From the NCBI GenBank assembly GCA_001275005.1, contig JWZX01001935.1, forward strand, positions 1 through 26,782: 26,782 nt of DNA, written 5' to 3'. The stretch is from Chrysochromulina tobinii. Lineage: Eukaryota > Haptophyta > Prymnesiales > Chrysochromulinaceae. Positions 1,853 through 26,782 of this stretch are shown here, one piece after another. Below the pieces are notes generated by a model. That model saw only the letters and a program-made list of their open reading frames with translations. It was not told where the DNA came from and did not search any database. Position numbers and translations under genes: made by a program. Numbering within the stretch: position 1 is the stretch's first letter; the number at the start of each line of letters is the position of its first letter.

Positions 1853-4015
1853 ATGAGCGAGCCCACAACAGCCATCACCGTCGTCAGCCCCAAAGAGGCA
1901 CCCACGCGCGAGAAGCCCAAGGAAAAGCAAATGAGGGCCAGTGCGTCGCTTCTGCTGCAGTTTGCGACCGGATGGGACCTCTTCTACATGATCTTTGCCG
2001 CCAGTTTGCAGTTCTTGGTGGGCGGCGCCATGATCATCCCGCTCGTCTTCTTCCAACAATTCTTCGATGCGGCGGGCGAGACGACATCGATCTCCCCCAT
2101 CGACATGGATGTGATTTCCGAGACCGCGCTCAACTTTACGTTGGTCGGCTGCGGGCTGATTGTCGGCTTTTTCTTTTCAGTGTGGCCTGTGATGCTTGCT
2201 GCGGCGAGCCAGAAGAGGAAATGGAAGAAGAACTCCCTTCGCGCGGTCCTCAGCCAAGACGTGGGCTGGTTCGACGTGAGCAACCCACAGGAGCTCGGCT
2301 CCAAGATCACCGCGAGCACGACCAACATCTACAAGTCCCTCGACTTCCCGTCGTACATGATCTTCCAGGGCATGGGCATGGCGATCGGCGGCATCTTATT
2401 CGGCTTCTTGCGCGCGTGGAAGGTCGCGCTTGTCGTCACAGCCGTCATCCCCATTGTGATCTCCATCTTCGTGGTCTTTTTCTACGTACTCTTCTCCGCC
2501 ACGTCGGTTCGAAACAAGGCGTACGCCACAGCCGATGGTCTGGCGACCGAATCGCTCTTCGCGATGCGTACCGTCGCGGCGCTCGGCGTCGAGCAGCGCT
2601 TCGCGGACAACTTCGTCGCCGTCCTCGAGCACGCGACGAAGGTGCAGGTGCGCATCAGCCCGCTCGTCGGCTTCACGGGTGGCACGGCGCTCTCGTCCTT
2701 CCTGTGGCTGCTCGTGACGGGCTTCCTGTCGGGCGGCTACTTCTTCTCGGAGCAGATGGACGAGTCGAAGTTCGACTATACGTACAACAACCTCACCTGG
2801 TGCGCCACCAAGGAGAACGCCCCGTTGTGTGGGCCGACGGGCTGCATCGCAGTGCCAGAGGCGATGGGCTGCGCCGCGGTTCCCGCGGCAATGGGCGGGC
2901 CGTACCAAAACTTCGAGATGAATTGCCGCTGGATGGGCTTCGTCAACTCCGGCGACAACTTCTCGACGATGCTGCTCGCGGGCCTTCAACAGCCATCTAC
3001 CGCCGCCTTCGAGGCATATGCCCAGACGCGGGTCAAGAGCTCCTGGCTCGATGAGCAGCCCGATCTCCTCGAAGGTTGTCCGCTCAGCGCGGCCGCGGTG
3101 CTCATCTGCGTGTTCGCGATGATGAACGGCGCGCAGGGCTTCGGCGCGGGCTTCGGCTCGCTCGCCAACTTCGCGCAGGGTCTCGTGGGCGCAGGCACGC
3201 TCGACCCAATCATCAAACGCAAGTCTCCGATCGACCCCTTCTCATCGGAGGGACTCAAGCCCGAAAGCGTTGAGGGGGCGATCGAGGTGAAGGACGTGGT
3301 GTTCGCCTATCCTTCGGCGCCCGAGCACCTGGTGTGCAACGGCTACTCGCTCTCCGTCCAGGCGGGCCAGACGGTCGCTCTGTGCGGCGCGTCCGGCTCG
3401 GGCAAGAGCACCCTCGTCTCCTTCATCATGCGTTTCTACGACCCGCGATCGGGCATCGTCACCCTCGATGGGCACGACCTCAAGTCGCTCAACGTCCGTT
3501 GGCTGCGCTCGCAGCTCGGCCTCGTCGGCCAGGAGCCGGTGCTCTTCAAAGGCACCGTCGCCGAGAACATTGCGTACGGCTATTTCGAGGCGACGCAGGA
3601 GGAGATCGAGGCTGCGGCCAAGATGGCCAACGCGCACGAGTTCATCACCAAAGACCTCGACGACCAGTACTCGTCCGATGTGGGGCTACGTGGCGGCAAG
3701 CTGTCCGGCGGGCAGAAGCAGCGCGTCGCGATCGCGCGCGCCATCATCAAGAAGCCGGCGGTGCTGCTGCTCGACGAGGCGACGAGTGCGCTCGACAACA
3801 CGTCCGAGAAGGTCGTGCAGGCGGCGCTCGACGAGATCATGACCAAGATGAAGCGCACGACCATCGTGATCGCGCACCGGCTGAGCACGATCCGCAACGC
3901 CAACAAGATCGCCGTCGTCGACAGGGGCAGGATTGTCGAGCAGGGCACGCACGACGAGCTGCTCATGCGGTCAGGAGGCATGTACAGCAACCTGGTTATT
4001 GCGCAGTCCTCGTGA
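1853..4015 (+). CDS. ABCB-type half ABC transporter with a long cysteine-rich TM5-TM6 loop
   Basis: This 720-residue half transporter has one exporter-type membrane domain (about residues 35-440) followed by one nucleotide-binding domain (about 470-715). It would work as a dimer, exporting a substrate that cannot be named from sequence. The ATPase motifs are complete: Walker A GASGSGKST at 512-520, signature LSGGQKQR at 617-624, Walker B VLLLDEA from 637 with catalytic Glu642, and switch His675 in IAHRLST. Membrane-domain hallmarks of the P-glycoprotein family are present, such as the DVGWFD coupling motif. The TM5-TM6 loop is unusually long (about residues 299-409). It has six cysteines and two N-glycosylation sequons (NLT, NFS), whereas family members have only a few residues here. 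ATG 1853 sits in a good context (GACATGAG). No intron is needed and the C-terminus is normal, so this is not a truncated full-size transporter by obvious breakage. Confidence 0.93.
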   Translation: MSEPTTAITVVSPKEAPTREKPKEKQMRASASLLLQFATGWDLFYMIFAASLQFLVGGAMIIPLVFFQQFFDAAGETTSISPIDMDVISETALNFTLVGCGLIVGFFFSVWPVMLAAASQKRKWKKNSLRAVLSQDVGWFDVSNPQELGSKITASTTNIYKSLDFPSYMIFQGMGMAIGGILFGFLRAWKVALVVTAVIPIVISIFVVFFYVLFSATSVRNKAYATADGLATESLFAMRTVAALGVEQRFADNFVAVLEHATKVQVRISPLVGFTGGTALSSFLWLLVTGFLSGGYFFSEQMDESKFDYTYNNLTWCATKENAPLCGPTGCIAVPEAMGCAAVPAAMGGPYQNFEMNCRWMGFVNSGDNFSTMLLAGLQQPSTAAFEAYAQTRVKSSWLDEQPDLLEGCPLSAAAVLICVFAMMNGAQGFGAGFGSLANFAQGLVGAGTLDPIIKRKSPIDPFSSEGLKPESVEGAIEVKDVVFAYPSAPEHLVCNGYSLSVQAGQTVALCGASGSGKSTLVSFIMRFYDPRSGIVTLDGHDLKSLNVRWLRSQLGLVGQEPVLFKGTVAENIAYGYFEATQEEIEAAAKMANAHEFITKDLDDQYSSDVGLRGGKLSGGQKQRVAIARAIIKKPAVLLLDEATSALDNTSEKVVQAALDEIMTKMKRTTIVIAHRLSTIRNANKIAVVDRGRIVEQGTHDELLMRSGGMYSNLVIAQSS

Positions 4016-7942: not shown

Positions 7943-8611
7943 TTAGACTGTTTAATATGACGAAGCTTGGAAGCACGCCGGGGGGGCAGTACCGGTCTGT
8001 GTTCGAGAGGGGGACCATCGGGGCGACGATGTTGCGACGACAGTATCGAGAGAATGTCTGAGGAGCGACCGTGCGCGGCCTGGGCGGTGCGGGCGAGTCC
8101 TCGGTGGGCGCAACCGTCGACGCAACCGGAAGCGGCCATGCATTGGCCATTGCATGCAAGGTGCCACGCCAGCGTGCGCACGGCAGTGGTTGCACCGCCG
8201 GCGCCCGGTAGCGGTACGCCAGTCGCCAGCAGGCAGCACACGGTTCACGAGGCGCGGTTGCCGGTTCGACGGTCGCCCGGCCGGCGCCGCGCGGGGACCA
8301 CAGTGTTTCAGATTTGTCTACCCGCGCCGGGGTCTGCTCGATCGATGACTTTCGACCGGACTGGGACACTCGACCGGCCGGGACCGCACCGGTCCCAGGT
8401 TGACACGTAACTATCTACTAATACTACTAAACTATACAACGATCATGTGCCATGTGAACCAGCGGCGCACTCGCGTCTTCGAATCAAACCGCCCGAGTCC
8501 CGTCTTCGTCGTTGTGTCACCCCGCGAGCGTCCGATGACCGCCTTGCGCGGCGCGCGCCGCGCGCGCCGGCGGCATCGCATCGACGTGCCGAGCCGCTGC
8601 GCACGCGCCGC
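7943..8611. other. Convergent intergenic region
   Basis: This region lies between the 3' ends of two convergent genes. I see no supported gene; the frames present are short and mutually overlapping. An AT-richer stretch near 8400-8450 (ACTATCTACTAATACTAC) is the likely zone of transcript ends. A GC-rich hairpin at 8380-8396 (GGGACCG, loop CAC, CGGTCCC) precedes it. A very GC-rich alternating tract lies at about 8546-8575. Confidence 0.5.
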
Positions 8612-9817
8612 CTACATTTCCTTCTTGAGCTTCTCAACCTTGCTCATCCCATAGGGGTCGGCCTTGTGCAGCTCCGCCATGATCTCCTCGAGCGACTTCT
8701 CCTCCCGCTTGACCTGGCTCATGTCCGCCTCGGGATGTCCCTTGAGGAGGCGCGGCCATAATGGCAAGTCCTTCTGAGCCTTCTGAAGCGTCATGTGCAG
8801 CTCGCGCCCCTCGCCGTCGTCGGCGTCCTTGAGCTCCCACAGGCACTCCTCGGGCACGATCGCGCCGTGCAGCTCGCCCTCGAGCAGCGCCGGAGCCCCT
8901 TTCCTCGCGGGCAGCCACGCGACCGTGAGCGAGGACGGCCTGAAGCTCACCTCGAGCTGGCGTGCCTTGGTGAGTGCGGGCAGCCCAAAGAGAGTGACGG
9001 TGATGGTCTCATCCTTGAGGGACTGCAGCCAGCGGTAGCCCTCCCCCACGCCGCCCGCGCCACCGTGCAGCAGAACCGGTGACTGCTTCGTCGTGAAGCA
9101 CAGCACACTCCAAGGACTACTCCCCTTCGAGTTCGTGGCTCGCACGCGCGCCTCGTAGCTGATGCCGGCAGAGAGCGGCTTGAGGCACACCTCCTTGTGC
9201 TCGTGCTTCTGGAGCAGGGGGATCCAGCCCTCCTCCGCTTTCGAGTCCGCGGCGGCGACGCTGCCGTCGCCGCTGCTGCTGCCGCCGCCGTGCGTCGCCT
9301 CCTCGCCCACTGTCACCGGGCGGATCTGTACCTCATACCAGTGCGTGCTGAAATCGGACGTCGACGAGTGGTGCCATTTGATTGTCGCCGAATCTGAGGT
9401 GCGTTTCGACGTGCCGAGATCCGAGAGCCCCGCGGGCAACACGTCCATCGCGTCGCCGTAGCACCATCGGCTGAAGCGCACGAGGGCACGCTTGCCGCGG
9501 GCTGCCGCCCAGAAGATGGGACCCTGCTCCGACAACCGCTTCATCCAGCGCAGCTGCTTCATGATGTCGGACGTCAGCCCAAGCAGGTGGCCCACGTAGC
9601 CCAGCAGCAGCAAGAAGGGCACGAGGAACTGTGGCTTCTTTATGAGCATGATGATCAGGAACGGAAGCAAGCCGACCAATGAAAAGAGGAAGGCGCGAAC
9701 AACGCTTTTGCGCTTGGGCAGCACGTTGGAGTAGACGGCCGACCAGAGGCTTCGGGCGCTCATCGCGATCGAATGGATCGCACGCTCGTGGAGCGGGCGC
9801 AACTGCCCCGGCGGCAT
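8612..9817 (-). CDS. Membrane protein with FN3 domain and C-terminal NudC-like CS domain
   Basis: The 401-residue protein has three parts. Near residues 38-82 there are two hydrophobic helices (AFLFSLVGLLPFLIIMLI and FLVPFLLLLGYVGHLLGL). A fibronectin type III-like domain follows at about 128-250, with an ATIKW strand, WYEVQIRPV, and the end motif YEARVRATNSKGSSPWS. At about 258-345 lies a CS (p23/NudC-type) domain: YRWLQSLKDETITVTL, LTVAW, LEGELHGAIVPEECLWEL, LHMTLQKAQKDLPLWPRLL. The C-terminal charged helix also resembles the NudC tail. CS domains of this type are HSP90 co-chaperone-like client-binding folds. The inference is a membrane-anchored co-chaperone, facing the cytosol with its C-terminus. 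The start could be 9817 or the internal Met19 near 9763. The gene is divergently arranged with Dicer, with about 210 bp between start codons. Confidence 0.7.
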   Translation of the reverse strand: MPPGQLRPLHERAIHSIAMSARSLWSAVYSNVLPKRKSVVRAFLFSLVGLLPFLIIMLIKKPQFLVPFLLLLGYVGHLLGLTSDIMKQLRWMKRLSEQGPIFWAAARGKRALVRFSRWCYGDAMDVLPAGLSDLGTSKRTSDSATIKWHHSSTSDFSTHWYEVQIRPVTVGEEATHGGGSSSGDGSVAAADSKAEEGWIPLLQKHEHKEVCLKPLSAGISYEARVRATNSKGSSPWSVLCFTTKQSPVLLHGGAGGVGEGYRWLQSLKDETITVTLFGLPALTKARQLEVSFRPSSLTVAWLPARKGAPALLEGELHGAIVPEECLWELKDADDGEGRELHMTLQKAQKDLPLWPRLLKGHPEADMSQVKREEKSLEEIMAELHKADPYGMSKVEKLKKEM

Positions 9818-10030: not shown

Positions 10031-13000
10031 ATGCTATACCCGCTGCGCGACTACCAGAAAGAGGCCGTCGCTGAAGCTGAGCGGCGCAACATCATCTGCG
10101 TGCTGCCGACCAATTCCGGCAAGACCGTCATCGCTGCGGCACTCATTGAGAAGATGCTGGACAAGGAGAATGCCGAGGGCGGCCTTGCGCGCAAGATGTT
10201 ATTTGTCGTGACGACACGGGAGCTCGCAAAACAGCAGGCGCGGGTTCTCCTGGAGCAGATCCCGCGGTTGAGGTATCTTGACGATGAGCATGCAGCAAGA
10301 GACAGCCCGCGACTGGGCATGCTGATCGGAGGAGACTGGGACTTGACAGCGGGGACGCGACCGTCAGCCTTCTTCCAGCGGGCGCAGGTGTGCGTGGTCA
10401 TCGCGGCCAAGCTCGAGGACGCGCTTGTGCACGGCTACCTGCAGATGAAGGACGTTGCGCTGCTCGTCATGGATGAAGCTCACCATACAAACGGCGCCTC
10501 GTTCTACTCCACAATCATGCGCTACTTTTACGAGCCGTGCGAGCCCCGCCCACGCGTGCTCGCGCTGACGGCGTCGCCGGTGGGGGATTCGGTCGCGAAG
10601 GCGCCGTCTGAGTGCGATTTCGAGTCGAAGCTCAAGGAACTCGAGCGCCTACTGCATGCTGCTGCCTGGACGCGGGTCATCGATCGAGAGCACTGCCCAC
10701 ATGCTGAACCGATAGTTCTGGTGCACGAGCCGTCGAAAGGCAGCAACTGGGAAACGGAGAGCAAGGAGAGCTTTGGTTACCGTGCCATCCTCGATGCCAA
10801 GCCGACGCTCGAGGACGCGACGGCTAGAGGCCTCCTCAGCCTTGAAGACGCCACCGAACTGCGCGACGCGTGGGACCGGTGCCTGAACCGCGCCGTCGAG
10901 GTGAGCGAGCCTTTGGGTGCGTGGGCGCTCGACTGGTGCGCCCGCATGCTCGAAAAAGACTTGAGCCGGGGCGCGAGGCGCCTTTCTTGGTACGACAAGG
11001 CGACGGATGAGGAGGACGATCAGAAAAGGTCCGTCGGCGGCACGGACGCGCATGCGCACCTGTTGAGTGAGGCCCGGGCGAGGCTCACGCAGCAGCTGAG
11101 CACGCGTGCAAAGGCACCGCCTGAGGCCGCGGTGGGTGGCCGGCTCGATGCGTTACTCAAGCATCTCCGCACGCGCGATCCGCGCAAGTGCATCGTCTTC
11201 GTGCAGCAGCGCGTGAGCTGCCCCTTGCTCGTCGACGCGGTCAAGGCGCTGCTCGGCGAGACTGCGGATTGGAACGATAACATCGATTGGATTTGCCGCC
11301 CCGGGAGTGTGGGCATCAGCCCGAGCGGCCCCGGCTCGAGCACGTACTCTGAGAGTCAGCTCGAACGGGCATTCTCCGCCTTTCGTGCCGATCGGATACG
11401 ACTGCTCGTGTCTACCTCTATCCTGGAGGAGGGCATCGACGTGCCCGAGTGCGATGCCGTGGTCGACTTTGATGTCGTTACGAGCACGCGCCAGGGGCAG
11501 CAGCGCAAGGGGCGCGCTCGCGCCCAAAACGCCTCGTACGCAGTCCTGGGTTCCTCCGACACCGCCCTTGAGAAACGTCAGCAGAATGAGCACGTGCGAC
11601 TCATGCAAGAGATGACTGTTGCAGTGATCGCGCCGTGCGAGCAGCGGCCGGATCGGCCGGATCCGCCGGATCTGCCGAGCCCCGAGCAGGCGCGTGCTAA
11701 CATCGAGCCCAAGAGCATTCGCACGTACCACCCCGACGGCCGCCCATGCGCACTGCTTCCAATCGAGCGCTGCAAGAAACTGCTCGACGACGTGTATTGC
11801 ATCACGAAATTTGCCGTGCAGCCTGGCGATTCTGTTTTCGAGCTGGACTTGACTCACGATGGCACGCACTTCACAGCCAAACACAAGAAGGCGAATAACT
11901 TCAACGTCGAGTCGACCGCCGACGGTCACACCTGCAAGCTCCACTTGCCGGGAGTGAGAATGTGCAGCGCTGATATTGGCAACATCCTCCCAATTACGCT
12001 GCCTTGGACGAAGGGATCTTCGGTGGTGAAAAAGCAAGACGCGATCGATCACGCGGCACTTGAAGGCGTGAACTACCTCTTAAAGATCGGAGTCCTCGAT
12101 ATGCACCTCCAGGTCAGCGCCGCCGCGGCCTCCTTGCTATCTCTCGCTGTTATCACGTGCATGTGATAACAGCGCACGTGACGCCATTGCTTGCGTTGTA
12201 GCTGCTCACTTGCTGTATGCGTGACCTCGGGCGCAGGTCGTCGGGCGCGCAGCGGCTCTGCAGCAGCTGCGCGAGAAGGCGGGTGTAGGCAAGCGGCGCA
12301 GCAGCACGCGTGCCAACAAGTACGCGCTCCATGTGAAGGAGGCGTGCGTGCGAGAGCTACCTGCTCTCTTCCGAACGTTGCCCTCTGCCGATGTGGCCGG
12401 CAACATGTCCGTGTGGTGCCATCCGCTGACCATCGGAGACGCCCCAACGGGCCTGGCGCTCCTATTCAGCAGCGCATGCCCTGTGCGTGAGCTGCCCGTT
12501 GGCCCAGACAAGCAGCGGCGTCACTGCGTGCTTGAGGACGGCTTTCGGATGACTTTGAGCGCGGCGCAGGCACAGCTTGTCGCGCGATGGCTGGTCGGAT
12601 CCCTTGACCTCACGCAAGCGGGCAATGCGGGCGAGCCGCTGCACGCCTCATTCAATGCGCCACAGCAGCTACTTGTATGGCATCATATTGCCGGCACTTT
12701 TACTCCTAACCCTGCTGCTGAGGTGCCCGCGAAGCGCGAGATCGCCGTGCTCGACTCGTCCCCTTACATTAGTGACTGGCGGAACCATCGGCGCGCGTCG
12801 CCCGACGAGCCCCGCGATGCTGCCGTGGACAAGCTTGCGGAAATCATCACCTCAATTGTGCAAAAGCTGAAGGAAAAGCTGAGCGCCACCTCGGCTGACA
12901 CATCCGCATCTGACGAGGCCATCATCGTGACCGTCGATCTCGACCGCACGCTGTGGAAAGGCGAGTGCCTTGACTGGCCAGTGGGCAGCTTCAAGCGGCA

Positions 13001-16000
13001 TTCCGATACGGCTGTCTTTGATGAGCGGGGCCATCGCTTCCTCGAGCTCCACGCGGAAGTGCCTCTCGTGTTTGCGGCACTCAAGAAGGTGAGAAGCGCC
13101 TCTTGTCCCCCTCTCGAACCCCAAAGCGCCCTTTGTCGCCATCGCCCTCCTAAGAGCTCCGAACGCGCCCTGACGCACTGCGCTCTCGTCCTCGAACTCG
13201 TTGCGAGCAGGCCCGCGTGCGTGTCACAGTCGCCTCGGCCTCCATCGCCGCGGACTCCGCGGACGAGTTGCTCAAGTGCTTCGGCTTGCGCGAGTACGTC
13301 AAAGCCATGGAGATGGGCGACGACGCGAACAAGCGCGAGAGCAGGAAGGTGGTGCACCTGCAGGGCCTCTCCAAGGGGCTAGGAGTGCCTGTCGACCGAT
13401 TCGTCCTCTTCGACGATGCCGAGGCCAACGTGAACAAGGTGCGTGAAGTGCTGGGTCCGTCGGATGCGGAGACCGGCTGCTCGGCCGTGTGCGTCGACCC
13501 GGCCGAGGGGCTGACGGCTGAGACGCTGTTGCGTGGTCTCGAGCACCGGTTAACTGAGCTTAGCCTGCGGGCAAGGTTTGCTGCGGAGAGGGCCCACGCG
13601 ATGCAGCGGGGAAACGCTGGCAAGGAGCCTCTACGCAAGGTGAAGCAGAGCCATGCGGAGACGCTTGCTCAAGGGCAGGCCGCTCTCGATGACCACGTCC
13701 GTGTCGCCTCAAAGCTCGAGAAGCTTGCCGTTGAGCCGGGATGGTGGCTTGCGGCGCCCCTCAATCCTGCTTGCAGCGAACCGCATGCAGCCGTCGAACT
13801 CGACTGGGATTTGATGGAGCACGCGGAGCGGCTCTTTGCAACGTGCGAGTGGCCAACACTCGCCGACGCGGAGTGCGACCGCCTCGTGAGGGCGAATGCA
13901 ACAGTCGTCGACGGCAAACTTGCGGCTGGAAGTATTGGTCTGTGCGCGCTTGCCACGTACGCGACAGAGCGTAACCGACACTACGAACTGCTGCTGCACG
14001 TGAGCGCAGAGGTCGAAGGCGATGTCATGACAATCTCGGGGGACAAGCGCAGCCGTCGAGCCCATGTCGGAGCGACGGCGGCAAACCGCTTCGTGCGAGC
14101 TGACGGCTCGTTCCGTACGCAGGAGACGGAGCGCGCGGTCGGCTACCGACCACGCCACGTGCAGCTTCTGCCCATGCGCTCGTCGCACTGCGACGCGCTG
14201 CGTGTGCTCAAGCGACTCCTCTGGCGTCTAGAGCACCTCGTACGCCTCACCGAGCCTGACGTGGTCGCACATTTCGGTGCACTCGCCATGGCGCCTGTGC
14301 TGCCCCTCGAGCGCCTCTCGGCGGCGCTCACCCATCCGGGGCGCGAGTGCCGAGGCGGTGCGCGTGGGCAGCAGCAGCCTACCGCCGGCGCCGCTCGACC
14401 GTTACGTGCACGATGAGCGCGGCTGCTGCCAGTGGGAGGAGCTCGAATGGCTCGGCGACGCGATGCTGCGCTTCTTTGCGGTGGTGTGGGTGCTCGTCGA
14501 TGAGGACCTCAAGAAGCAGTTCGAGAAGCCTCATGCACCCCCATGCTCCGTCCGAGGCCTCTCGCCTGCCAAGGAGGCCATCGAGAGCAATCAGCAGCTC
14601 CACCGGCGGGCGAAGGAGCTCGGGCTGCCGGTGCTCTCGCTGTGCGCGCCTTTCGTGAACAGCTCGACGTTGCCGCAGCTACGTAAGCAGTCATGTTCGA
14701 TCAAGGACCAGGCGGATCCGATGGAGGCGCTTCTCGGCACGGCCGCCCTTGCCGCGATCGCTGAGGCGCCGAAGGAGCCCGAACTACCCGTCGCCATCGC
14801 CGCGGCCTTTGGCTTCTTTCATTCCGCCGTGCTCTCCACGCAGCAGAAGCAGAGCCTTTCGATGCAGCCACTCGACACGGCGGCGAAGTTGATGGCCAAG
14901 CTCGTGACGCAGTTTGAGGGCTGTTGGAAAGATGTCAAAAACGATGAGGGCGCCACCACTCTGAGCGCAGCCCTCGTCGCGCAGAGCGGGCCGATCCCAT
15001 TCGAGTCCGTACTCGGCATGCTGCATGCGTGCAGCCTTTGCCGCAGCGGCACCGTCTTTGAGCGCGCCGAGTTCTTAGGTGATGCCTTCCTGCAGATCGC
15101 CGTCTCGCTCGAGCTCGCACTCCGCTTCCCCGGGCGCAAAAATGGCGAGGTGAGCGAGATGCGCTCGGCGCTTGTCAACAACCTTCACCTCGGGCGGCTG
15201 CTCATTCGCCGCTTTGGTGTGCCGTTGACCCATCGCTTCGTGGAGACGCGCGGTAGCGGTGTTTCGAGTAAGCAACTCAGGGCTATCCGCACGTTCATCG
15301 CAGCGACATCAAGCTCAAGCGAGACGGCGCTCGACATTGTCCAGGCGATCCACGCCGCATCCCAGGCGGAGGAAGACGGCGACAAGCAGGTGCTCGCCTC
15401 GAATGGCCTCGTCGAGGAGGACGGGCCGGAGGACGAGCCAAGCGGTGAGCCGCAGTACCACAGCAAGCGTGGCGAGGACTACCGCAAGCCGCTCGGGGAT
15501 CAGTACGAGGCGATCGTCGGCCTCGTCCTCTGCGCTTACAAAGGCGATTGTGAGGCCACGTGGCGCTGCTTCGTCGACGACTTCTTCCCGCCCCCTAGCC
15601 CAAGCTCCAGCGCGCCGGAGCTGGCTGACATGGAAGCGACTGAGCAGGCAGTGGACGAGGATGACAACCGCAAGCTCGACGCGGCGCTACGTGGCTTGAG
15701 GAAGACCAGGTTCGTTTCTGCTTTTCGCCGGCTGCAACCAGAGGTGCCGCCGTTAGCTGCGGCGAGGCCGATGGCCGCAGAGTCACCGCCGGTGCAGCCG
15801 ATGGAGGAGTCACCGCCTGTGCTGCCGATGGAGGGAGCAGCGACGACGAGTGATGATCTCGTCCTCGAACCGGACGGCGATCCCTCGCAAGCTCATGCAC
15901 AGAGCGCGCCGAGAGTGGGCGCCTCTCCTCCAGCGGCTGTGCTCGGAGGCGAGGTATGTGACGAGCCGATGGCGCAAGCAGCTGCTCCGCTTGCGTCGAC

Positions 16001-16748
16001 AGTAGATGTTGCGGCGGCCTTCTTGCCTTCTACTGCGGCGGCTCAACAATATTCCAATCCCATCGGCATGTTTAACGAGCGGCTTCAGAAGGAGCAAATC
16101 TCGCGAGACGCGTTCCTGCGAGTTGAATTCTCCAAGTGCGCGCCGTTTCGCGCCGACCTGTTCCACATCGAGAGCAAGCAGCTGCTCGGCTCTGCGGCAG
16201 GACACTCGAAGAAGAAGGATGCCGAGAAGGCGGCGTTCACGGACATACTCAACTGCTGGCACCAACGGGGTGTCCCTCAGCTTCTCGAGCAGGCGCGTCA
16301 AGGAGGGATACAGCCAGCGCTGCAAGCGGGCGTGGGGAATGCGCCGCCACCGGCATCGCAGCCGTTGGCGCAGCAGCCGCAGCATGCACGCAGCAAGCGG
16401 GCGCTCGAGGCCGACATCTGCGATCTACACGCCTTCGCCTCCGGTCGCGCCTCGGATCGTCGCGCGCGCGCGCGCACGCAGTCGCCCGCAGTGGGGATGG
16501 ACGAGACTGCGCTCGACGCGCTGATCGACAAAGTGGAGTCGAGCGAAACGTTCAAACACAGAATTAAGAGGCTCGCCACTAAAGCTGGTCTGCCGCTGGA
16601 CGAGTTGGAGGATGTCGCTGAGAAGGCGCAGGAGATCTCTCGGCCGCCGGAGAAGGAGCACTCGGCAGGGCGGCTTTTTCACGATTGGCTACTTTACGAG
16701 TATAGGCTTACTACGGAGCCAAGTGGACTTGTGCAAGACCCCTTTTGA
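10031..16748 (+). CDS. Dicer ribonuclease with an embedded MDP-1-type HAD phosphatase domain
   Basis: Dicer cuts long double-stranded RNA into small RNAs. Proposed exons are 10031-12112, 12237-13088 and 13211-16748, about 2,156 residues, with a one-base frameshift in the G run at 14338-14341. Domains in order: DExH helicase (Walker A LPTNSGKT, Lys31; DEAH 148-151; ALTAS; QRKGRAR 491-497); DUF283 dimerisation region (about 563-710); platform-like segment (about 750-820, with GLALLFSS and the end VARWLVGSLDL); HAD phosphatase (about 920-1095); connector (WWLAAPLN and VELDWDLMEHAERL) and a noncanonical PAZ-position region; and the pre-RNase III helix (LLWRLEHLVRL). RNase IIIa follows (EELEWLGDA, Glu1390/Asp1394; ADPMEAL, Asp1480/Glu1483), then RNase IIIb (ERAEFLGDA, Glu1598/Asp1602; GDQYEA, Asp1741/Glu1744), then a dsRBD (about 1927-1995, with GHSKKKDAEKAAF). 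All catalytic residues are present. ATG 10031 is used because the helicase begins directly with LRDYQKEAV; an upstream in-frame GTG is not needed. Confidence 0.9.
12113..12236 (+). other. Dicer intron 1
   Basis: This 124-bp phase-0 intron has donor CAG|GTCAGC and acceptor GGGCGCAG|GTC. Splicing joins GVLDMHLQ to VVGRAAALQQLREK, continuing the DUF283 region. Unspliced, the frame meets a stop at 12164-12166. It contains a perfect 12-bp inverted repeat (see findings). Confidence 0.85.
12145..12174 (+). repeat. Perfect 12-bp hairpin inside Dicer intron 1
   Basis: CGCTGTTATCAC at 12145-12156 is the exact reverse complement of GTGATAACAGCG at 12163-12174, with the 6-nt loop GTGCAT between them. 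A G.U pair could extend the RNA stem inward, leaving a TGCA tetraloop. It lies about 30 nt after the donor site. Confidence 0.85.
12915..13560 (+). other. MDP-1-like HAD phosphatase domain encoded within Dicer
   Basis: The segment encodes a magnesium-dependent phosphatase-1-like fold at Dicer residues about 920-1095. Motif I is VDLDRTLW (nucleophile Asp928, acid/base Asp930), followed by a family-like strand and turn (VFDERGHRFLELHAEVP). Motif II is VTVASAS (Ser987 region), immediately after the exon 2/3 junction. The motif III Lys is Lys1024 in SRKVVHLQGL. Motif IV is FVLFDDAEANV (Asp1046, Asp1047), which matches the MDP-1 'FFDDE' element. MDP-1 proteins are small stand-alone Mg-dependent phosphatases reported to act on protein phosphotyrosine and on sugar phosphates. 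Intron 2 splits the domain in phase 0, and both flanks are in frame with Dicer, so fusion is supported at the gene-model level. Confidence 0.88.
13089..13210 (+). other. Dicer intron 2 (splits the HAD domain)
   Basis: This 122-bp phase-0 intron has donor AAG|GTGAGA and acceptor TTGCGAGCAG|GCC. It joins VPLVFAALKK to ARVRVTVASAS, which restores the MDP-1 order of helix, strand and motif II. Confidence 0.85.
14338..14341 (+). other. Single-base frameshift in a G run within the Dicer RNase IIIa domain
   Basis: The upstream frame reads LSAALTHPG, the start of RNase IIIa. It then runs into unrelated sequence and a stop at 14414-14416. The frame offset by one reads GASAEAVRVG and onward to EELEWLGDAM. 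Removing one G of the four at 14338-14341 joins them exactly at THPG. No convincing intron fits. This may be an assembly indel, an allelic pseudogenising change or ribosomal frameshifting. Confidence 0.75.
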
Positions 16749-16986: not shown

Positions 16987-17185
16987 GTGAGGGTCGAACA
17001 CCTCGCACACGTCACAGCCGCTTCATTCTCATGCTCGCGACATGCAACGTGTACCGCGCTCACAGACACGGTTCAGAGTCGCCATACCCCGGGTCAACCC
17101 CGGGTCTGAACCCGTGCAACCACCTCGCCTGGCAGGCGTGTGGACCGTGGCGGACACACAAACACAACACATACAATCACTTCGC
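16987..17185 (+). repeat. Left terminal inverted repeat
   Basis: This 199-bp arm begins GTGAGGGTCGAAC. It contains the ATG at 17031 that may start the element ORF. Confidence 0.85.
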
Positions 17186-18767
17186 TGAACTTATCCCGGC
17201 CAGCTCCCACTTCCCTGAGCTTTTCTCACGTCTGGATGACGGTCGACTCAGCCCTGCCACCATTCCCCTAGGGGCAGCCGCCCACCGCGACCTCGATGAC
17301 TCCCACGATTCCCCCTCCTTCATCTACGACCTGGACGCCCTTGATGCTACTTGCCACCCACACGCTCAGAGAGCAGCCTCGGCAGTGGTAGCTTCACGCG
17401 CTTTCCTTGTCCTCTTGAATGATCCGATCACTACGGCCACGGGCAGAGCCCGCCTACTGGACGGCAGCTCGGCTAAGGGACCCTTTACTTGGCTCCGGCG
17501 CCTCCCCATCCCTTCCAGCGACCCTGGCGACACTCCTTTCTTTGCTTTCCAAGTCCCCCAGCACTTCCCTGTCGCCCTCGCCCTCGACCTTCTACTTTCT
17601 CCGCCCACGCAAGGGGAAGGCACCATCCTCCGCTGCACCGCCTGTGCCACCGTAGCCCAACCTTTAGGCCACCCTCTTGTTGGCCCAGGCGACCGGCACT
17701 TTGTGCCATGCCCCCACGGCATGCGACTCCATTCCACTTGCCATGACCCCGCTGTGCAAGCTCTCGTCCCCTTTCTCGATGCAATCCTGGGTGCCTCAAG
17801 AGTCACAGCCGAGCGCGGCGGCCAAGGAGGCCAAAGAGCTGTTGACCAGTGGATGCAGAATCATTCTATCTCTCACGTCCCTGACATCATCCTCCACGAC
17901 TACGATAGGCCCAACTCCTTTGTCCTCATCGACATCAAAACTCTCGACGCGGCTGGCGCAGCCCACATCGCAGCCCACCACACTGACCGCGCGCGCATGT
18001 CTGCCCACCTTGCCATCGCTGCTCACTCGCGGCGCAACCAGTATGGCGACATCGGGCCCAATATGCGCCTCATCATCATCGCGATCAGCACGTGCGGCGC
18101 CATCAACCCTGAGGGCATCGATTTCATCTCCCATCTCGCCAGGCGCACCGATAATTCCATTCCGCCTGCCCTTCTCCACCAAGCTTCTTGGGCTGCACCC
18201 AGACTGGCTCCTATGATCAGAATGGCCCTCGGCTTCGCCGTCCGGCGAGGCCTCGCGGCAGCTGTCTATCACTGGTGGCGACGCTCCCCTGCCCTTCGCC
18301 AGCGACCCCCGACGCCGCCTCAGCCACCGCCGCCGTCTCTGCTGCAGCCGCCACCGCCGCCACCGCCTCGGCGCCCCCAGCCGCCGCCACCGCCGCCACC
18401 GCCTAGACGCCCCCAGCTCGACGACGACCTCTCCCCGGCCGAGGAGGCCGCTCTGAGCCCCCGGCCACACCACGTGTCGCCTCCGCCCTCGCCTCCCCCG
18501 GGTCAGGACCCTTGGGTGCAGCCCCTGCCCGTCATGCCATGCCATGCCATACCATATCATTCCATGTTTGGCGGAGATGGAGATGGTCCCTCTCTTCACT
18601 CGCCAGCCAGGCGACGTGATAGTATGTGTTGTGTCTGTGTGTCCGCCACGGTCCACACGCCCGCCAGGCGAGGTGGTTGCACGGGTTCAGACCCGGGGTT
18701 GACCCGGGGTACGGCGACTCTGATCCGTGTCTGTGAGCGCGGTACACGTTGCATGTCGCGAGCATGA
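17031..18767 (+). CDS. Element-encoded protein with zinc-ribbon and PD-(D/E)XK-like nuclease region
   Basis: The frame is open from 16845, but ATG 17031 lies inside the element and is a more sensible start (578 residues). The middle part has the layout seen at the C-terminus of many restriction-like-endonuclease retroelement proteins. There is a GPFTWLRRLP segment, then a Cys/His cluster (ILRCTACATV, HFVPCPHGMRLHSTCHD), then a long helix (ALVPFLDAILGAS). The core VPDIILHDYD...SFVLIDIKTLD follows, where Asp of PDI and the DIK (Asp and Lys at 17931-17939) fit a PD-(D/E)XK active site. A proline-rich tract lies at about 18300-18510. The final ~50 residues are read from the right inverted repeat. 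No reverse transcriptase or known transposase catalytic domain is visible. The protein is probably needed for element mobility, but that is inference. Confidence 0.6.
   Translation: MLATCNVYRAHRHGSESPYPGSTPGLNPCNHLAWQACGPWRTHKHNTYNHFAELIPASSHFPELFSRLDDGRLSPATIPLGAAAHRDLDDSHDSPSFIYDLDALDATCHPHAQRAASAVVASRAFLVLLNDPITTATGRARLLDGSSAKGPFTWLRRLPIPSSDPGDTPFFAFQVPQHFPVALALDLLLSPPTQGEGTILRCTACATVAQPLGHPLVGPGDRHFVPCPHGMRLHSTCHDPAVQALVPFLDAILGASRVTAERGGQGGQRAVDQWMQNHSISHVPDIILHDYDRPNSFVLIDIKTLDAAGAAHIAAHHTDRARMSAHLAIAAHSRRNQYGDIGPNMRLIIIAISTCGAINPEGIDFISHLARRTDNSIPPALLHQASWAAPRLAPMIRMALGFAVRRGLAAAVYHWWRRSPALRQRPPTPPQPPPPSLLQPPPPPPPRRPQPPPPPPPPRRPQLDDDLSPAEEAALSPRPHHVSPPPSPPPGQDPWVQPLPVMPCHAIPYHSMFGGDGDGPSLHSPARRRDSMCCVCVSATVHTPARRGGCTGSDPGLTRGTATLIRVCERGTRCMSRA
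18533..18566 (+). repeat. Degenerate ATGCC pentanucleotide tract
   Basis: ATGCCATGCCATGCC is followed by diverging copies (ATACC, ATATC, ATTCC). The tract lies inside the element between the proline-rich tract and the right inverted repeat. Confidence 0.7.
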
Positions 18768-18809
18768 GAATGAAGCGGCTGTGACGTGTGCGAGGTGTTC
18801 GACCTTCAC
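18611..18809 (-). repeat. Right terminal inverted repeat
   Basis: This arm is the reverse complement of 16987-17185, with about seven differences and no gaps. Its outer end reads GGTCGAACACC on the minus strand. Confidence 0.85.
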
Positions 18810-20876: not shown

Positions 20877-21168
20877 CGCGGTTGTACTGCCGTCCGGCCG
20901 CGGCCGCGAGCAGGATTGCCGGTGCGGGCAGGGGACCTGGCTTTTTTTGCTTTGCGAAGTTTATTTTCGTTACGAGATTCGAAACAGCTGCGCGCGCGCG
21001 CCGCGCTTACCGCGAACGGCCCCCATCCCCACGGGACTCGACACTATTCGACACATCGACCTGAGCGTCTCATGTTCTTTTTATAGAGCTTGTCACTTGT
21101 TCATCACGGAGACTCTTGAGCGAATTGAGTTTCTTGATGAACCGCCGTCTCTCGGACACGCGCACCCC
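20877..21168. promoter_or_regulatory. Divergent promoter region between the STPGR and SLC25 genes
   Basis: This 292-bp interval separates the two start codons. It includes a run of eight T near 20941-20948 followed by AAGTTTATTTTCG, and a CG dinucleotide run near 20991-21003. No standard TATA box is recognised. Confidence 0.4.
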
Positions 21169-22053
21169 ATGGACCCGTCATCGGACCCGGCTGTCGAGGC
21201 CACCGCGGGCGCAATCGGCTCTTTGATCACGTGCGTGGCGATCATGCCTGTCGACACGGCCAAGGTAAGGATCCAGGCAGGCGTCAGCACGGACGGAGTG
21301 TTAGGAACGATGCAAGCCGTTGTGAAATCTGAGGGACTTCGGGCCTTGTACCGCGGTCTTTGGACCAAAGCGTTGCACACGATGCTCCAGAATTGGCTTT
21401 ACTTTTTCACCTACGAGTGGCTCAAGGCTCGCCGTAAGAGCTTGGGCCTCCGTACTTCAACGCTCGTGAACACAGCATGTGGCGTCCTTGCTGGGGTATC
21501 CAACCTGACTGTGACGCTGCCGCTCGAGACACTCATGGTACGCCTGCAGACTGGCGATGCCTCGAAGAATCTATCACAGCACGCCTCGGAGCTCGTCGCC
21601 GGTGGTCCGTCGAGCGTGTGGTGTGGCTTCGGTGTCTCGTCCGTGCTCACACTCAACCCAGCGCTGACCATGGCCATCTTTGACGCGCTGAAGGCGCGTG
21701 TGTCCAAGCTGACCAAACGGGCGCGGCTGAGCACACTCGAGGGCTTCCTCGTGGGCTCGCTCGCGAAGGCCATTGCGACCATCATCACGTACCCTCTCAT
21801 ACGCACCAAGGTGGTTATGCAGCTCAGCAGCGGTCAGGGCAACGGTCATCCGCCCAAGGGCATGGCAGAGACATTTGTGAACATATGGCGACGCGAGGGC
21901 GCAGAGGGGCTCTTCCGAGGGTGCTCCGCTCAAATCTTTACGGCAGTCAGCAAGAGCGGCATCCAGCTCGCCGGTAAGGAGCAGCTCGCTGGATTCGCGC
22001 TGCTCATCTTGATGAGAGCACCCCCCGCCCCTCACAAATCATGTCACAAATAA
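21169..22053 (+). CDS. SLC25 carrier, peroxisomal adenine nucleotide transporter-like
   Basis: This 294-residue protein is of mitochondrial-carrier-family length, with three repeats of two transmembrane helices. The signature motifs are PVDTAKVRIQ (Pro27), PLETLMVRLQ (Pro118) and YPLIRTKVVMQ (Pro209). The third repeat's PLIRTKVVMQ is close in style to plant peroxisomal adenine nucleotide carriers (PNC) and PMP34, which swap ATP for AMP across the peroxisome membrane. Helical residues such as GRGLW-type YRGLWTKALH and FRGCSAQI follow repeats 1 and 3. ATG 21169 (MDPSSDPAVEATAGAIGSL) leads straight into helix 1. The longer open frame upstream overlaps the divergent neighbour's promoter and is not expected to be translated. 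Substrate assignment is tentative. Confidence 0.8.
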   Translation: MDPSSDPAVEATAGAIGSLITCVAIMPVDTAKVRIQAGVSTDGVLGTMQAVVKSEGLRALYRGLWTKALHTMLQNWLYFFTYEWLKARRKSLGLRTSTLVNTACGVLAGVSNLTVTLPLETLMVRLQTGDASKNLSQHASELVAGGPSSVWCGFGVSSVLTLNPALTMAIFDALKARVSKLTKRARLSTLEGFLVGSLAKAIATIITYPLIRTKVVMQLSSGQGNGHPPKGMAETFVNIWRREGAEGLFRGCSAQIFTAVSKSGIQLAGKEQLAGFALLILMRAPPAPHKSCHK

Positions 22054-22395: not shown

Positions 22396-23464
22396 CTACG
22401 TCGATTTAAAGTGGTCGTCGTCGATGGTGCTGTACAGATGGCCGTCGTCGACGAGCCCCTGCACGATGGAGCGCACCTGCGCCTCCTGCACGCCATTCGA
22501 GGCAAGCGCCTGGGCCGCCTCGAGCACCGTGCACCCCGCGTCGCTTGCGGCACCCTTGCTCTGGAAGAATTTAAGCACGAGGTCCTGCAGCGACGCGCCC
22601 GGCGCCCGTGCTGCCGGAGCGCCGGGGACGGGCGCCGCGCCGCGCACCATGCCGGGAGCCACGGGCGCACCGTACGCGCCTGCGGCAGCGCCCGCGGCGG
22701 CCGCGCCCGGCACGGCGCCCTTGGTGTGGCGCAGGTGCGTGTGGACCACTTCGAGGAAGTGGAAAGTGTACTCGTTGAAATCGTGGATGGGCTCGATGGA
22801 GTAGGCGACGATGTTCTTGGCGTGGTTGAATGAGCGCAACTGGCCGATCACGCGCACGTACGCGCCCTCCTTGCACTGGGCGCGCCGCTCCGCCTCATCG
22901 TCCGGCGCGTCGGCGTCGGTCCACTTCTTGACCATAATCGTGTCGGTGCCGTCGTCGATCTGGTACTGCAGATTGGTCTGCTGCTCGTCGGCGTGCATGA
23001 TGAGCCCCACGACGGTCACCTGGTGCAGGTCGCGCCCGTCGAGCGTGAAGCCATTCTCGCCGTTGGCCACAGCGAGCGCGTTCTTTAGCTGCTTGATGGT
23101 CACTGGGATGAGCGACTGCCTGTTCTTGTCCGACGTGGTCTCCGGGCCGGGCGTCGAGTTGTCAACCTGCATGAAGCCGCCCGCAGGTGCTTGGCCAGCA
23201 CCACCCCCATACTGGCTCGCGCCAAAGCCCTGAGCACACATGGGGCGTGTGGCAGCGAGGTGAGAGACGTGGGAGAGATTTTTGGCGAGGGCTCAGTGCG
23301 GCGCACCCCATCGACAGCAGCGCCGCCGAACTGGTCGCCGCCAAACTGGCCGCCGCCGCCAAAACCACCGTCGAAGCCGCCGCCGTACTGCACACAGAGA
23401 AATTGCAAAGGTGACGAGCGCAGAGCTGTCAGTCGTTGCAGAACGCTCGCACCACGGCAGTCAT
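22396..23464 (-). CDS. RPA2: Replication protein A 32-kDa subunit (RPA2)
   Basis: RPA32 is part of the heterotrimer that coats single-stranded DNA in replication and repair. The main exon is 23229-22396, preceded by a 81-nt exon 23387-23307 (YGGGFDGGFGG..., acceptor TGTGCAG|TAC, donor GGG|GTGCGC). The 77-bp phase-0 intron ends in GTGCTCAG|GGC. A 12-nt first exon (ATG at 23464, coding MTAV) is proposed but tentative. The total is about 308 residues. Visible features are a Gly/Tyr-rich N-terminus, an OB fold (LIPVTIKQLKNA, HQVTVVGLIMHAD, YQIDDGTDTIMVKKW, YVRVIGQLRSFNHAKNIVAYSI), the FNEYTFHFLEVVHTHL helix for trimer formation, an Ala/Gly/Pro linker, and a C-terminal winged helix ending GHLYSTIDDDHFKST. 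These match the family closely. Confidence 0.92.
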
Positions 23465-23959: not shown

Positions 23960-26782
23960 TCAGCCCGACGATTGTTTGATGCCTCCGGCGAGCACGGCGA
24001 AGATGGCCTCGAAAACGTTTACGACGGCCTGGCCGCAGCGGCGCCTGGTTTCCTCCTCGTTGGCGCACAAGGCGCTCCCTAACAACATGGGCAGTCCGTT
24101 GACCGCGAGGATGAGCATGGGCTCGTGCAGCAGCAAGCGCTGCACTGCCGAGAGCGACCAAGCGATCAAAAGCTCATCTGGATTGCCAGGAACCGTCGAG
24201 TTGTCGTCCCCGTACTGCGACGGCTCAAAGAGCTCGCAGCCGTAGAGAAAGAAGACAAGAAGCATGCCAAAAAAGAGGATCACGTTGGCTATCCAGCCAA
24301 AGAGAATCCGCCGGACGTTTCGCCAGTTGCGGCGCTGCCACGAGTGCGTGAGCGAAGCCTGGAGGACACCTTCGTTATCGGAAGAGCGCTCTTGCTGGGC
24401 TGCAGAAGGTGAACTTGGCGATCCATTTTTGCCGTGGGAGCCTGACGTTGCCATGAAGCGAGTTGCGCGTGTGCCAAGTCGCCTCGTCCCCTCATCGCGT
24501 GCGCGTTCATCAGCCCCTGCACTCTTTATCGGCGACGACGGTGCTGCCATCGTTTCTTCGTCCGCAGGATGGACGCGCGCATGGCGTCCGCCCCTTCCAA
24601 GCGCTCTGGCGACCAGTGCATTCGAGGTCCCGGAATTGGGTGATGGTGGAGATGGTGGTGGCGAATGAGAGAAAGATGAGAAGAGCGCGGCTGTCAGAGA
24701 CGAGGCCGCGAGAGCCACCTCGTCCGCCGCCTCTGCCTCTGACGCTGCCTCTGGCGCTGCCTCTGACGCTGCCTCCTTCTCTGCTGCTGCTATCGCCGCC
24801 GCTGCCGCTGCCTCCGCTGCTATGGCTGCCCTTGCCGCCGCTGCTGCCGCCTCCGCCGCTGCCGCTGCCTTAGCTGCAGCGGCTGCTACCGCCGGTGCTG
24901 ACGCCGCCTCCGCTGCTTCGGCTGCTGCGAGCCAGTATGCCGAACTCGCCTTCCCCTGAAGCCTACATACTGCGGAGCTACCCGACACTGCAGCTCCGAC
25001 CTTGGCCTTGACAGACGCGAGGGCCGCCTTCCTCGCCGCCGCTGCCTCTGCCGCTGCCGCTGCCTCCGCCGCCGCCTGTGCCTCCGCTTCTGCGCGTTCC
25101 GCTGCCGTCGCACTCGCCTTTGCTTGAAGCATACTCACCGCCGAGCTACTCAAAACTGCTGCTCCGACCTTGGCCTTGGCCGACTTGAGGGCCGCCTCCT
25201 TTGCCGCCGCAGCCTCGGCCGCCAAACGCGCCTCTTCCGTGCGCCGCTCCTTCTCCTCGACAGCATTCAGCTCGAGCATGGAGGCGATAGATGTCGACTT
25301 GCCCACCGACTTCATCGACGAGGCGAGCTTGGCGCGCGCCGCCTCTTGGCGATGGATTCTCTCCGCTTCTGCCGCGGCTGCGGCCGCGGCCGCCTCCGCT
25401 GCGGCCGCAGCCTCCGCCGCCATGCGAGCCGCCTCCTCCGCGGCCTCGCGAGCTTCAGCCGCGTCGTCTGCCTTCTCCTGCAACAGCTTCATCAAGGCTG
25501 CTTTCTTGCTGACGGCGCCCATCTTTCGCTTGGCTGAGCGCACAACCGACGCCGTGAGGAGGGCCGACCCAGGTGGCGGATGCCACTGGGGAACACGCTT
25601 GTCGACGTGCCAGTAGTAGACCATGCCTGAATTACTATACGCACGCCTCCAGCCGGGTGGGAGGGCCGGAAGCTCCGGCTGCTCTGGCTCAGCTGTTGCG
25701 GGGGCGCTGGCTACACGTGGCTTCTGCACCACCTTCAGCTTGGATGTAGCGTCCGAGGCCCGGATCATCGCGCGTAGACGTTCTTTAGGCAACACCTTGA
25801 CCTCCTCCGGAACGTACTTATCGGCAGGCTTTGACCGGCATTGCAACAGCCAATATGGCCAGCAGACGCCAGCGCGCAGTAGCCACCAACCCACTCTTAC
25901 GAAGACGATGGGATTGAACAGCCACGCAAATGTCACCATGGTCGGAGTGGTGAAAACAGAGGCCACAATTGCGCTGCCGATGACGCCCCCCTGCCACAAC
26001 GAGACTCAACAAGGTCGCTCAGGAAGCAGCTGGCGAAAGCATGGTTCAAGTTGCACAGGCTCGCACTGCGTTGACGGTCGTGGTTGGCTCGCCATCAGCC
26101 CTGGGATCTGGCGGAGAGTAGAACAAGCACAGCATGATGAGCTCGAAGCTGAACGAGTTGAGCAGAATCATGACGGTTTGTGCCCGAGTGTACCCCGCGG
26201 TACCCCGGTGAATGATGCCCGTGATCAGAGTATGGTTCCTTATGCACGTGAGGCGGTGGCGCTGCCAGGCGGAATCAATGTTTTGGCGCGCGCATCGTGC
26301 CGTGACTCCTCGTGTCACAACCCTCAAACTGCTCCAGCAGTCGTGTATTCGTTTTGCTGCGGCATTCACGACCACCCTGGTCCGGTACGAGAGCGTTTTC
26401 TTCCTGTGGATTGCCTCATCAGCCTTTGACTTGAGCTTCGTACCAATCGACTTAACTTTGAGGTATGCTCCGAGCTGCAGCCGCCCGACAGCGGCCGATG
26501 TGGCGATCCGTGCCGCCTTCTCGGCAGCCACCTTGGCCTTATCGTCGGCCTTTGCCTTGAGCTTTGCGCCAATCACGTTTGCCTTCATGGATGCTCCGAG
26601 CTGCAGCCGCCCGGCAGCGGCTGATTCGGCGATCCGAGCCGCATTTTCGGCAGTGGCCGCCGCCTCGCGAGCGGCCTCTTCGGTCTCACGCGCGCGCGCT
26701 TCAACGCGCGAGCGACGTGCGCGAGCGCGGCCGACGCGGTCACGCGCGGCCGCCTTGGCAGCCTCGGCCGCCACATTGGCAG
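23960..26782 (-). CDS. Multi-pass membrane protein with WW domain and Ala-rich helical repeats (5' end outside the window)
   Basis: Visible exons are 26780-26067 and 25990-23960, joined by a 76-bp phase-0 intron (donor GCA|GTGCGA, acceptor GTGGCAG|GGG). At least 914 residues are visible; the frame is still open at the window edge. The order is: Ala/Arg-rich helices with a 42-residue repeat (GRLQLGA...IGxKLKxKAD); a hydrophobic segment (ILLNSFSFELIMLCLFYS); then, after splicing, GGVIGSAIVASVF and TFAWLFNPIVF. A WW domain follows (LPPGWRRAYSNSGMVYYWHV...PQWHPPPG, about 25575-25670), then a long Ala/Glu coiled coil with 56-residue repeats (KAKVGAAV...AVxxLQxKAS), a Ser/Pro linker, and C-terminal membrane helices (FGWIANVILFFGMLLVFFLYG and LLHEPMLILAVNGLPMLLG). 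The membrane parts have a polycystin-like look, but I cannot assign a family. WW domains bind Pro-rich ligands. Confidence 0.7.
26440..26640 (-). repeat. 126-bp tandem coding repeat in the WW-domain membrane protein
   Basis: GCTCCGAGCTGCAGCCGCCC occurs near 26467 and again near 26593, a spacing of 126 bp or 42 codons. The encoded units both read GRLQLGA followed by a Lys-rich helix (IGxKLKxKAD). One flank is partly outside the conserved unit. Confidence 0.7.

Follow-up and report, generated by a model that had tools for sequence, protein, structure and literature searches.

A Dicer gene of Chrysochromulina tobinii with an MDP-1-type HAD phosphatase domain predicted to lie within the platform

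Introduction

Phosphatases of the MDP-1 family (HAD subfamily IIIC) are known for activity on proteins and small molecules, and plant HEN1 is a separate protein that reportedly binds DCL1. In the bacterial RNA repair complexes Pnkp-Hen1 and Pnkp1-Rnl-Hen1, a phosphatase acts with Hen1 on RNA 3′ ends (available text of PMC4411300), and in Dicer the platform domain recognises the 5′ phosphate (available text of PMC9279154). A small-RNA study of Emiliania huxleyi gives DCL and HEN1 a gene model each, separate from one another, the word ‘phosphatase’ being absent from its main text in the form available (PMC4839659), and the accessible part of one review mentions haloacid dehalogenases solely in halogen metabolism (PMC12026948). 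Among the matches listed from the openly licensed PMC literature, at the level of titles and the starts of abstracts, none reports a Dicer joined to a HAD phosphatase or to HEN1.

Here we describe a gene at 10031-16748 of a window of 26,782 nt (the whole stretch of DNA analysed) from the haptophyte Chrysochromulina tobinii. It encodes a Dicer, predicted to cut double-stranded RNA, and differs from human DICER, Drosophila Dicer-2, plant DCL3 and DCL4 and Giardia Dicer in having a HAD domain predicted to be inserted in the platform, in giving no Pfam PAZ match, in carrying a C-terminal SAGR-FHD motif and, in some of its relatives, in being fused to HEN1. The HAD differs from MDP-1 in that it is embedded in a Dicer, belongs to a tree group of its own and falls under the MDP-1 equivalog cut-off. 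In contrast to plant HEN1, the methyltransferase of relatives P0002, P0003 and P0006 is part of the Dicer chain; it is absent from the window gene. The pairing in these relatives is like that of the bacterial complexes, but a Dicer chain takes the place of kinase and ligase. Unlike the Pnkp-Hen1 complexes, the window gene has no Hen1; it may work in a similar way without being a member of that group.

Results

The domain order is a Dicer/RIG-I-type helicase, a weak DUF283, a platform-PAZ-connector cassette with the HAD predicted inside the platform, two RNase III domains and a dsRNA-binding domain (dsRBD). The features are as follows.

10031..12112, plus strand: exon 1, helicase and weak Dicer_dimer/DUF283 match
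about 10040-10588, plus strand: DEAD/ResIII (Pfam ResIII, 1.4e-16)
about 11144-11518, plus strand: Helicase_C (Pfam, 4.3e-14)
11891-12112, plus strand: Dicer_dimer/DUF283 (Pfam, E 0.0017; 18.8 bits, below the cut-off of 23.7)
12113..12236, plus strand: intron 1, 124 nt, GT-AG, phase 0
12237..13088, plus strand: exon 2, first platform part, linker and HAD motif I
about 12351-12620, plus strand: first part of the platform, in exon 2 (predicted structure)
12921..13561, plus strand: MDP-1-type HAD phosphatase domain; its coding sequence is 12921-13088 plus 13211-13561
12936-12950, plus strand: HAD motif I, DLDRT, in exon 2
13089..13210, plus strand: intron 2, 122 nt, GT-AG, phase 0, interrupting the HAD coding sequence
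13562..13732, plus strand: predicted long helical segment leading from the HAD back to the platform (helices 388-416 and 422-455 of the P0001 model)
13742..13762, plus strand: predicted last platform strand, WWLAAPL (strand 465-469 of the P0001 model), conserved in the alignment of 17
13802..14146, plus strand: PAZ-like region, by fold only, without a Pfam PAZ match
14147..14266, plus strand: predicted connector helix (helix 607-630 of the P0001 model)
14303..14777, plus strand: RNase IIIa, active-site E, D, D, E present; frame break near its start
15000..15602, plus strand: RNase IIIb, active-site residues present
16059..16253, plus strand: dsRBD, predicted alpha-beta-beta-beta-alpha (948-1012 of the P0007 model)
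16662..16748, plus strand: the conserved motif SAGRLFHD, followed by a short tail and the stop; in place of this end, P0002, P0003, P0004 and P0006 run on into HEN1

The helicase, in which the motifs GKT, DEAH, TAS and QxxGRAR are present, resembles the Dicer/RIG-I type, and its best solved relatives are the AncD1D2 Dicer helicase (2.3e-36) and Arabidopsis DCL1 (2.4e-25). The Dicer_dimer family scores above the Pfam cut-off in P0009-P0012, P0015 and P0016 and below it in P0005 and P0013, and the Pfam scan listed no match to it in P0014. Helicase, Acid_PPase and two stretches of Ribonuclease_3 exceed their Pfam cut-offs in the window protein, in agreement with the helicase, HAD and RNase III assignments of the preliminary description.

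Both introns proposed there are GT-AG and phase 0, and the spliced junctions run on without a break in the proteins of relatives. Compared at the protein level, the junction of intron 1 is uninterrupted in nine database proteins (P0005, P0009-P0016) and that of intron 2 in all 12 of the relatives that reach it; furthermore, the Acid_PPase score, 41.1 bits for exon 3 alone, reaches 72.2 bits once intron 2 is spliced. Exon 3 is split over two frames: the one entered at 13211 is closed by a stop at 14416, and RNase III is read in the other (14232-16748), so the assembly contains a one-base frame break near 14.34 kb. A 25-nt mini-intron at this point was considered and rejected, as P0007, P0008 and P0004 are ungapped there and the other relatives align across it. 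P0007, a metagenome protein with 134 member sequences, starts within the HAD, is identical to the window protein at 1170 of 1176 residues (99.5%), crosses the site without an indel and reaches the same C-terminus; thus, intact copies of the gene exist. The earlier claim of one continuous gene stands in that helicase, HAD and RNase III are joined within one protein in four relatives (P0005, P0009, P0010 and P0012), which also contradicts a division of helicase and RNase III into separate genes, but not for exon 3 of this assembly, with its one-base break.

The HAD assignment is supported by profile search: Acid_PPase matches at 6e-20 (72.2 bits against a cut-off of 27), covering profile positions 5-164 of 169, and mouse MDP-1 is the closest solved relative (7.9e-11). 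Acid_PPase is the only family listed at E up to 1 for the piece bearing the HAD, and profile scans gave no match to the PNKP 3′-phosphatase family PNK3P in the window or the scanned relatives. Against the NCBIfam MDP-1 equivalog TIGR01685 (cut-off 53.75), the window HAD lies just under the threshold at 52.3, and P0002 and P0005 score 31.9 and 29.6. In the alignment of 17, the catalytic set (DxDxT, Ser/Thr, Lys, DD) is invariant in the rows that reach it, and across relatives the HAD equals the helicase and RNase III parts in conservation. The domain is of phosphatase type and has an intact catalytic set. In the tree, the Dicer HAD forms its own group. The tree lends no support to an origin of this domain from one of the free MDP-1-like genes that the host carries, but two of the host branches are long and of unsure placement.

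The same architecture was looked for in related sequences. Database searches found 16 non-plant relatives, of which 12 contain the complete HAD in an unchanged position and four start inside the HAD; all 16 match the HAD family (two of those starting inside it score below the cut-off), a count that is not the frequency of HAD among the Dicers of this lineage, since the queries contained the HAD and relatives without it score lower. Each search scored the 7976-7986 candidates sharing most words. Because every non-plant relative found matches the HAD family, routine splicing-out of the HAD appears unlikely. Members of the family are only about 35% identical, with catalytic residues kept. Four plant DCL4 proteins without a HAD were also matched (E 1.6e-6 to 1.2e-4); the HAD is absent by domain scan from P0017 and by a precomputed domain list from the other three.

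The surroundings of the HAD were read from a structural model of relative P0001 (mean pLDDT 70.5, pTM 0.52), scores too low to read from it how far the HAD site lies from the RNA-end pockets. The model agrees with the platform-PAZ-connector cassette seen in solved Dicers. It places the HAD within the platform, after a long helix and before the last strand, with PAZ and connector predicted to be kept. The position between platform and PAZ given in the preliminary description was thus off by one structural element; its view that the HAD occupies the RNA-end-binding region agrees with the model as far as the cassette goes, but the PAZ region is not replaced. Foldseek alone, run with the model of the relative, gave seven matches at E 0.001 or better, all of them HADs. 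An hmmsearch of the two HAD flanks against the PDB found no Dicer. When the flanks were joined and compared with plant DCL4 by hhalign, the register was as expected but the match was not significant.

For RNase IIIb and the dsRBD, and for their fold only, a model of P0007 was used, which is poor as a whole (mean pLDDT 52.3) and better scored in the dsRBD segment. Foldseek with this model returned nothing at E 0.001 or better. Together, the two domains match mouse Dicer 3c4b in a loose superposition. Pfam dsrm is barely below its cut-off in P0009 and P0010 and is not listed for the window protein.

Three relatives (P0002, P0003 and P0006) extend into the small-RNA methyltransferase HEN1, and P0004 does so in part. 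In the three, this portion comprises a La-motif-type segment and a methyltransferase with an ExxEH...H pattern, presumably the metal-binding residues. The window protein stops before the HEN1 position, with a short C-terminus common to P0007 and P0008, and a search of its own genome, run without a positive control, found no HEN1 match; HEN1 has apparently been lost in this lineage. A downstream inverted repeat was rejected as the cause of the missing HEN1, as it starts at 16987, about 240 nt past the stop; insertion of the repeat is also disfavoured by the absence of a target-site duplication at its ends and by P0007 and P0008 being equally short. P0009-P0012 and P0016 are likewise without HEN1 as far as their records go, and coupling to HEN1 is therefore not the sole reason for retention of the HAD.

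Discussion

What the sequences themselves show is the order of the domains, the catalytic residues, the conservation across 16 relatives and, in some of them, the continuation into HEN1. The interpretation that we favour, tentatively and at somewhat less than even chance, is that this Dicer uses its MDP-1-type HAD to dephosphorylate RNA ends, most likely 3′ ends, before dicing and methylation. Predicted to lie in the platform, next to where the RNA end is gripped, the HAD would likely take off terminal phosphates, probably those of 3′ ends, and the healed ends would then be suited to binding by PAZ, to dicing and, in relatives, to methylation by HEN1. We infer here that the HAD is active as a phosphatase, that RNA is its substrate and that the 3′ end is its site; the MDP-1-type match and the absent PNK3P match count against an RNA-end 3′-phosphatase.

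The predicted location in the platform could equally point to the 5′ phosphate. The HAD might strip or check 5′ phosphates, for example the triphosphates of RdRP products, and so tune anchoring in the platform or discrimination of self from non-self. The platform is the domain that recognises the 5′ phosphate, RdRP matches occur on five contigs of this genome, and RdRP products carry a 5′-triphosphate. However, small RNAs that have lost the 5′ monophosphate are poor Argonaute guides, in three relatives the HAD shares its chain with the 3′-end enzyme HEN1, and we know of no pyrophosphatase activity on 5′-triphosphate ends among MDP-1-like HADs; a role at the 5′ end thus seems rather unlikely to us.

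Unlikely, too, is a regulatory role in which the HAD acts on proteins and dephosphorylates this Dicer or its partners, as might be suggested by MDP-1, the closest solved relative, whose record 1u7p is titled as a hypothetical phosphotyrosine phosphatase. A regulator could be attached anywhere, and an identical place of insertion within the RNA-end-binding cassette would be odd for one. An insert with long helices, as modelled, may be large enough to shift the cassette, and the HAD might then be a structural spacer, its catalysis unused, that alters the length measured from the end-binding to the cutting site, but its invariant catalytic residues and a conservation like that of the nucleases make this improbable. 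Finally, a merger of neighbouring genes in annotation or assembly, or a decayed gene, as the frame break near 14.34 kb and a C-terminus shorter than in the HEN1-bearing relatives might hint, is scarcely credible given the retained catalytic residues, the unbroken P0007 from inside the HAD onward and the four relatives in which a single protein combines helicase, HAD and RNase III, just as the preliminary description had judged of a neighbouring-gene artefact.

More doubtful than dephosphorylation of RNA ends itself, though worth considering, is a new class of Dicer in which end healing, unwinding, dicing and, in sister lineages, 2′-O-methylation by HEN1 would take place on one polypeptide. Which RNA ends a Dicer accepts, and where it cuts, is set by its cap, and here an enzyme that may alter those ends is predicted to be built into the cap. 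In close relatives, the fusion to HEN1 physically links dicing to 3′-end methylation, and the apparent loss of HEN1 in the window lineage offers a natural comparison of the methylation state of small RNAs, and of the importance of the phosphatase, with and without HEN1. If dephosphorylation of RNA ends by the HAD is correct, end editing would belong to the dicing process in some eukaryotes. If the new class of Dicer is real, its members would correspond, in RNA silencing, to the bacterial Pnkp-Hen1 repair machines, and RNAs whose ends are damaged or phosphorylated could be directed into silencing.

Results

The domain searches describe a Dicer that carries a phosphatase. The preliminary description had assigned a HAD phosphatase domain of the MDP-1 type (magnesium-dependent phosphatase 1), and this was borne out by profile search, with a Pfam Acid_PPase match of 6e-20 across the joined exon 2/exon 3 piece. 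The domain can be aligned to MDP-1 of mouse and human, and its NCBIfam MDP-1 equivalog score of 52.3 falls slightly under the cut-off of 53.75. Exon 1 matched ResIII (1.4e-16), DEAD (4.4e-15) and Helicase_C (4.3e-14), and the closest solved structures to the helicase are Dicer and RIG-I-like helicases. Ribonuclease_3 (3.8e-16) was matched over two stretches in the final part of the protein, and Dicer_dimer (0.0017) lay under the Pfam cut-off.

The window is contig C892 of the host assembly (53 Mb, 2253 contigs) and has a G+C content of 63%. Introns, RdRP and replication protein A mark the host as a eukaryote. The Dicer gene and its neighbours are as follows.

1709-4012: ABC transporter reading frame, flanking the Dicer gene
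8615-9817, - strand: head-to-head neighbour of the Dicer gene (gap ~210 nt), encoding CS and fibronectin type III domains
10031-12112, 12237-13088, 13211-16748, + strand: Dicer gene, three exons and two introns
16987-18809: inverted-repeat element, 199-nt inverted repeats (96% complementary) flanking a proline-rich reading frame
21160-22050: mitochondrial carrier reading frame, flanking the Dicer gene
22399-23292, - strand: replication protein A subunit 2-like reading frame, flanking the Dicer gene
23963-26005, - strand: WW-domain reading frame, flanking the Dicer gene

The repeat of the 16987-18809 element has at least 41 further matching places, its own second arm included (40 of 76 candidates scored). 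No target-site duplication was seen at the repeat ends, and the proline-rich reading frame had no Pfam match.

A set of 5.8 billion proteins was searched three times, giving 6, 12 and 16 hits with an E-value of 0.001 or better; pooled, these comprise 16 distinct non-plant relatives, named P0001-P0016, plus four DCL4 proteins from plants. All 16 non-plant relatives matched Acid_PPase (14 above the cut-off, P0004 and P0008 under it), a proportion that is no gauge of how often the HAD is missing, as the HAD was part of the query regions. Four of them (P0004, P0006, P0007 and P0008) start within the domain, and the other 12 extend far enough to include HAD motif I. A Pfam scan of the plant DCL4 P0017 gave no Acid_PPase match. 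In P0004, an 87-residue insertion (residues 507-593), not found in the other aligned relatives, separates RNase IIIa from RNase IIIb.

Both proposed phase-0 introns held: they have GT-AG borders and are 124 and 122 nt long, and the first exon junction is uninterrupted in nine database proteins and the second in all 12 that reach it. Furthermore, the Acid_PPase score is 72.2 bits once spliced compared with 41.1 bits from exon 3 alone, which supports intron 2. The claim of one continuous gene stood in part. P0005, P0009, P0010 and P0012 each combine the helicase, the HAD and two RNase III domains in a single protein (protein records only), but in the host assembly exon 3 is split over two frames, the entry frame being open until 14416 and the RNase III frame running from 14232 to a stop at 16748, with a one-base frame break near 14.34 kb, within RNase IIIa. 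The metagenome protein P0007 (a cluster of 134 member sequences) shares 1176 residues with the window protein, 1170 of them identical, aligns without internal indels and ends at the same C-terminus. As this near-identical protein is unbroken, sequence comparison indicates that the break is an assembly error or a private mutation, and that intact copies are present in metagenomes.

In an alignment of 17 sequences, counted over the rows reaching each motif, the HAD motifs are kept throughout (DxDxT, 13/13; motif II serine, 15/15; lysine, 17/17; DD pair, 17/17). The same holds for the RNase III active-site residues in every aligned row reaching them, the first RNase IIIb position being E, or Q in P0009-P0016. 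Over nine pairs of the complete members (window, P0005, P0009, P0010 and P0012, omitting the near-identical pair P0009/P0010), mean identity was 46.3% for the HAD, 46.5% for the helicase core, 47.9% for RNase IIIa, 47.5% for RNase IIIb, 38.7% for the first part of the platform and 34.0% for its last strand plus PAZ; the values were similar in a larger set with unequal pairs. Nine Dicer HADs form a single group in the tree (support 100/100) that excludes mammalian MDP-1 and the three free MDP-1-like genes of the host. The simplest reading of these sequences is that the HAD was acquired once, long ago, and retained as an active enzyme.

In P0002, P0003 and P0006, the chain runs beyond the dsRBD into a region resembling HEN1, the small-RNA 2'-O-methyltransferase, so that Dicer, HAD phosphatase and HEN1-type methyltransferase lie in a single predicted protein. 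The Hen1_Lam_C and methyltransferase matches there are under Pfam cut-offs; an alignment of the HEN1 part matched Arabidopsis HEN1 at 3.5e-29, and P0002 matched bacter_Hen1 at 5.4e-32, under the equivalog cut-off of that model. P0004 has just the first part of the region, and the C-terminal ends of P0001 and P0005 are uninformative. The window protein, P0007 and P0008 end without HEN1 and form one group (100/100). Because this group is nested among HEN1 bearers in the midpoint-rooted tree, the data fit a single gain of HEN1 followed by loss in the window's lineage, unless further exons lie downstream. The HEN1 part had no match in the host genome, an empty result that is weak.

Searches of the host assembly show the window gene as the sole Dicer, with one additional RNase III place, two Piwi places (one above cut-off) and six RdRP family places on five contigs (C990, C1842, C1819, C514 and C1320). 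Three free-standing MDP-1-like phosphatase genes lie on contigs C1948, C307 and C21.

Discussion

Sequence comparison establishes the domain architecture, the motifs, their conservation and the HEN1 extension in relatives. Among the matches listed from the openly licensed PMC literature, the titles and abstract openings disclosed neither a Dicer with a HAD phosphatase nor a Dicer-HEN1 fusion.

A structural model of P0001 predicts that the HAD lies within the platform, and inside the Dicer cap (platform, PAZ and connector, the RNA-end grip) a phosphatase would be favourably positioned for action on RNA ends. We infer such an activity, RNA as its substrate and the end acted on. A 5' phosphate is required by the platform and by Argonaute. 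We therefore favour the 3' end, as a 3' phosphate would block 3'-end methylation and three relatives have HEN1 in the same chain. The 5' end is a less favoured candidate target, for which the predicted seat of the insert in the platform speaks. If the 3' end is the target, relatives carrying HEN1 may remove the 3' phosphate first and then methylate the 3' end. This would resemble the order proposed for bacterial Pnkp1-Rnl-Hen1, phosphate removal and then methylation (PMC4411300). The window protein is a Dicer by family, yet a striking variant.
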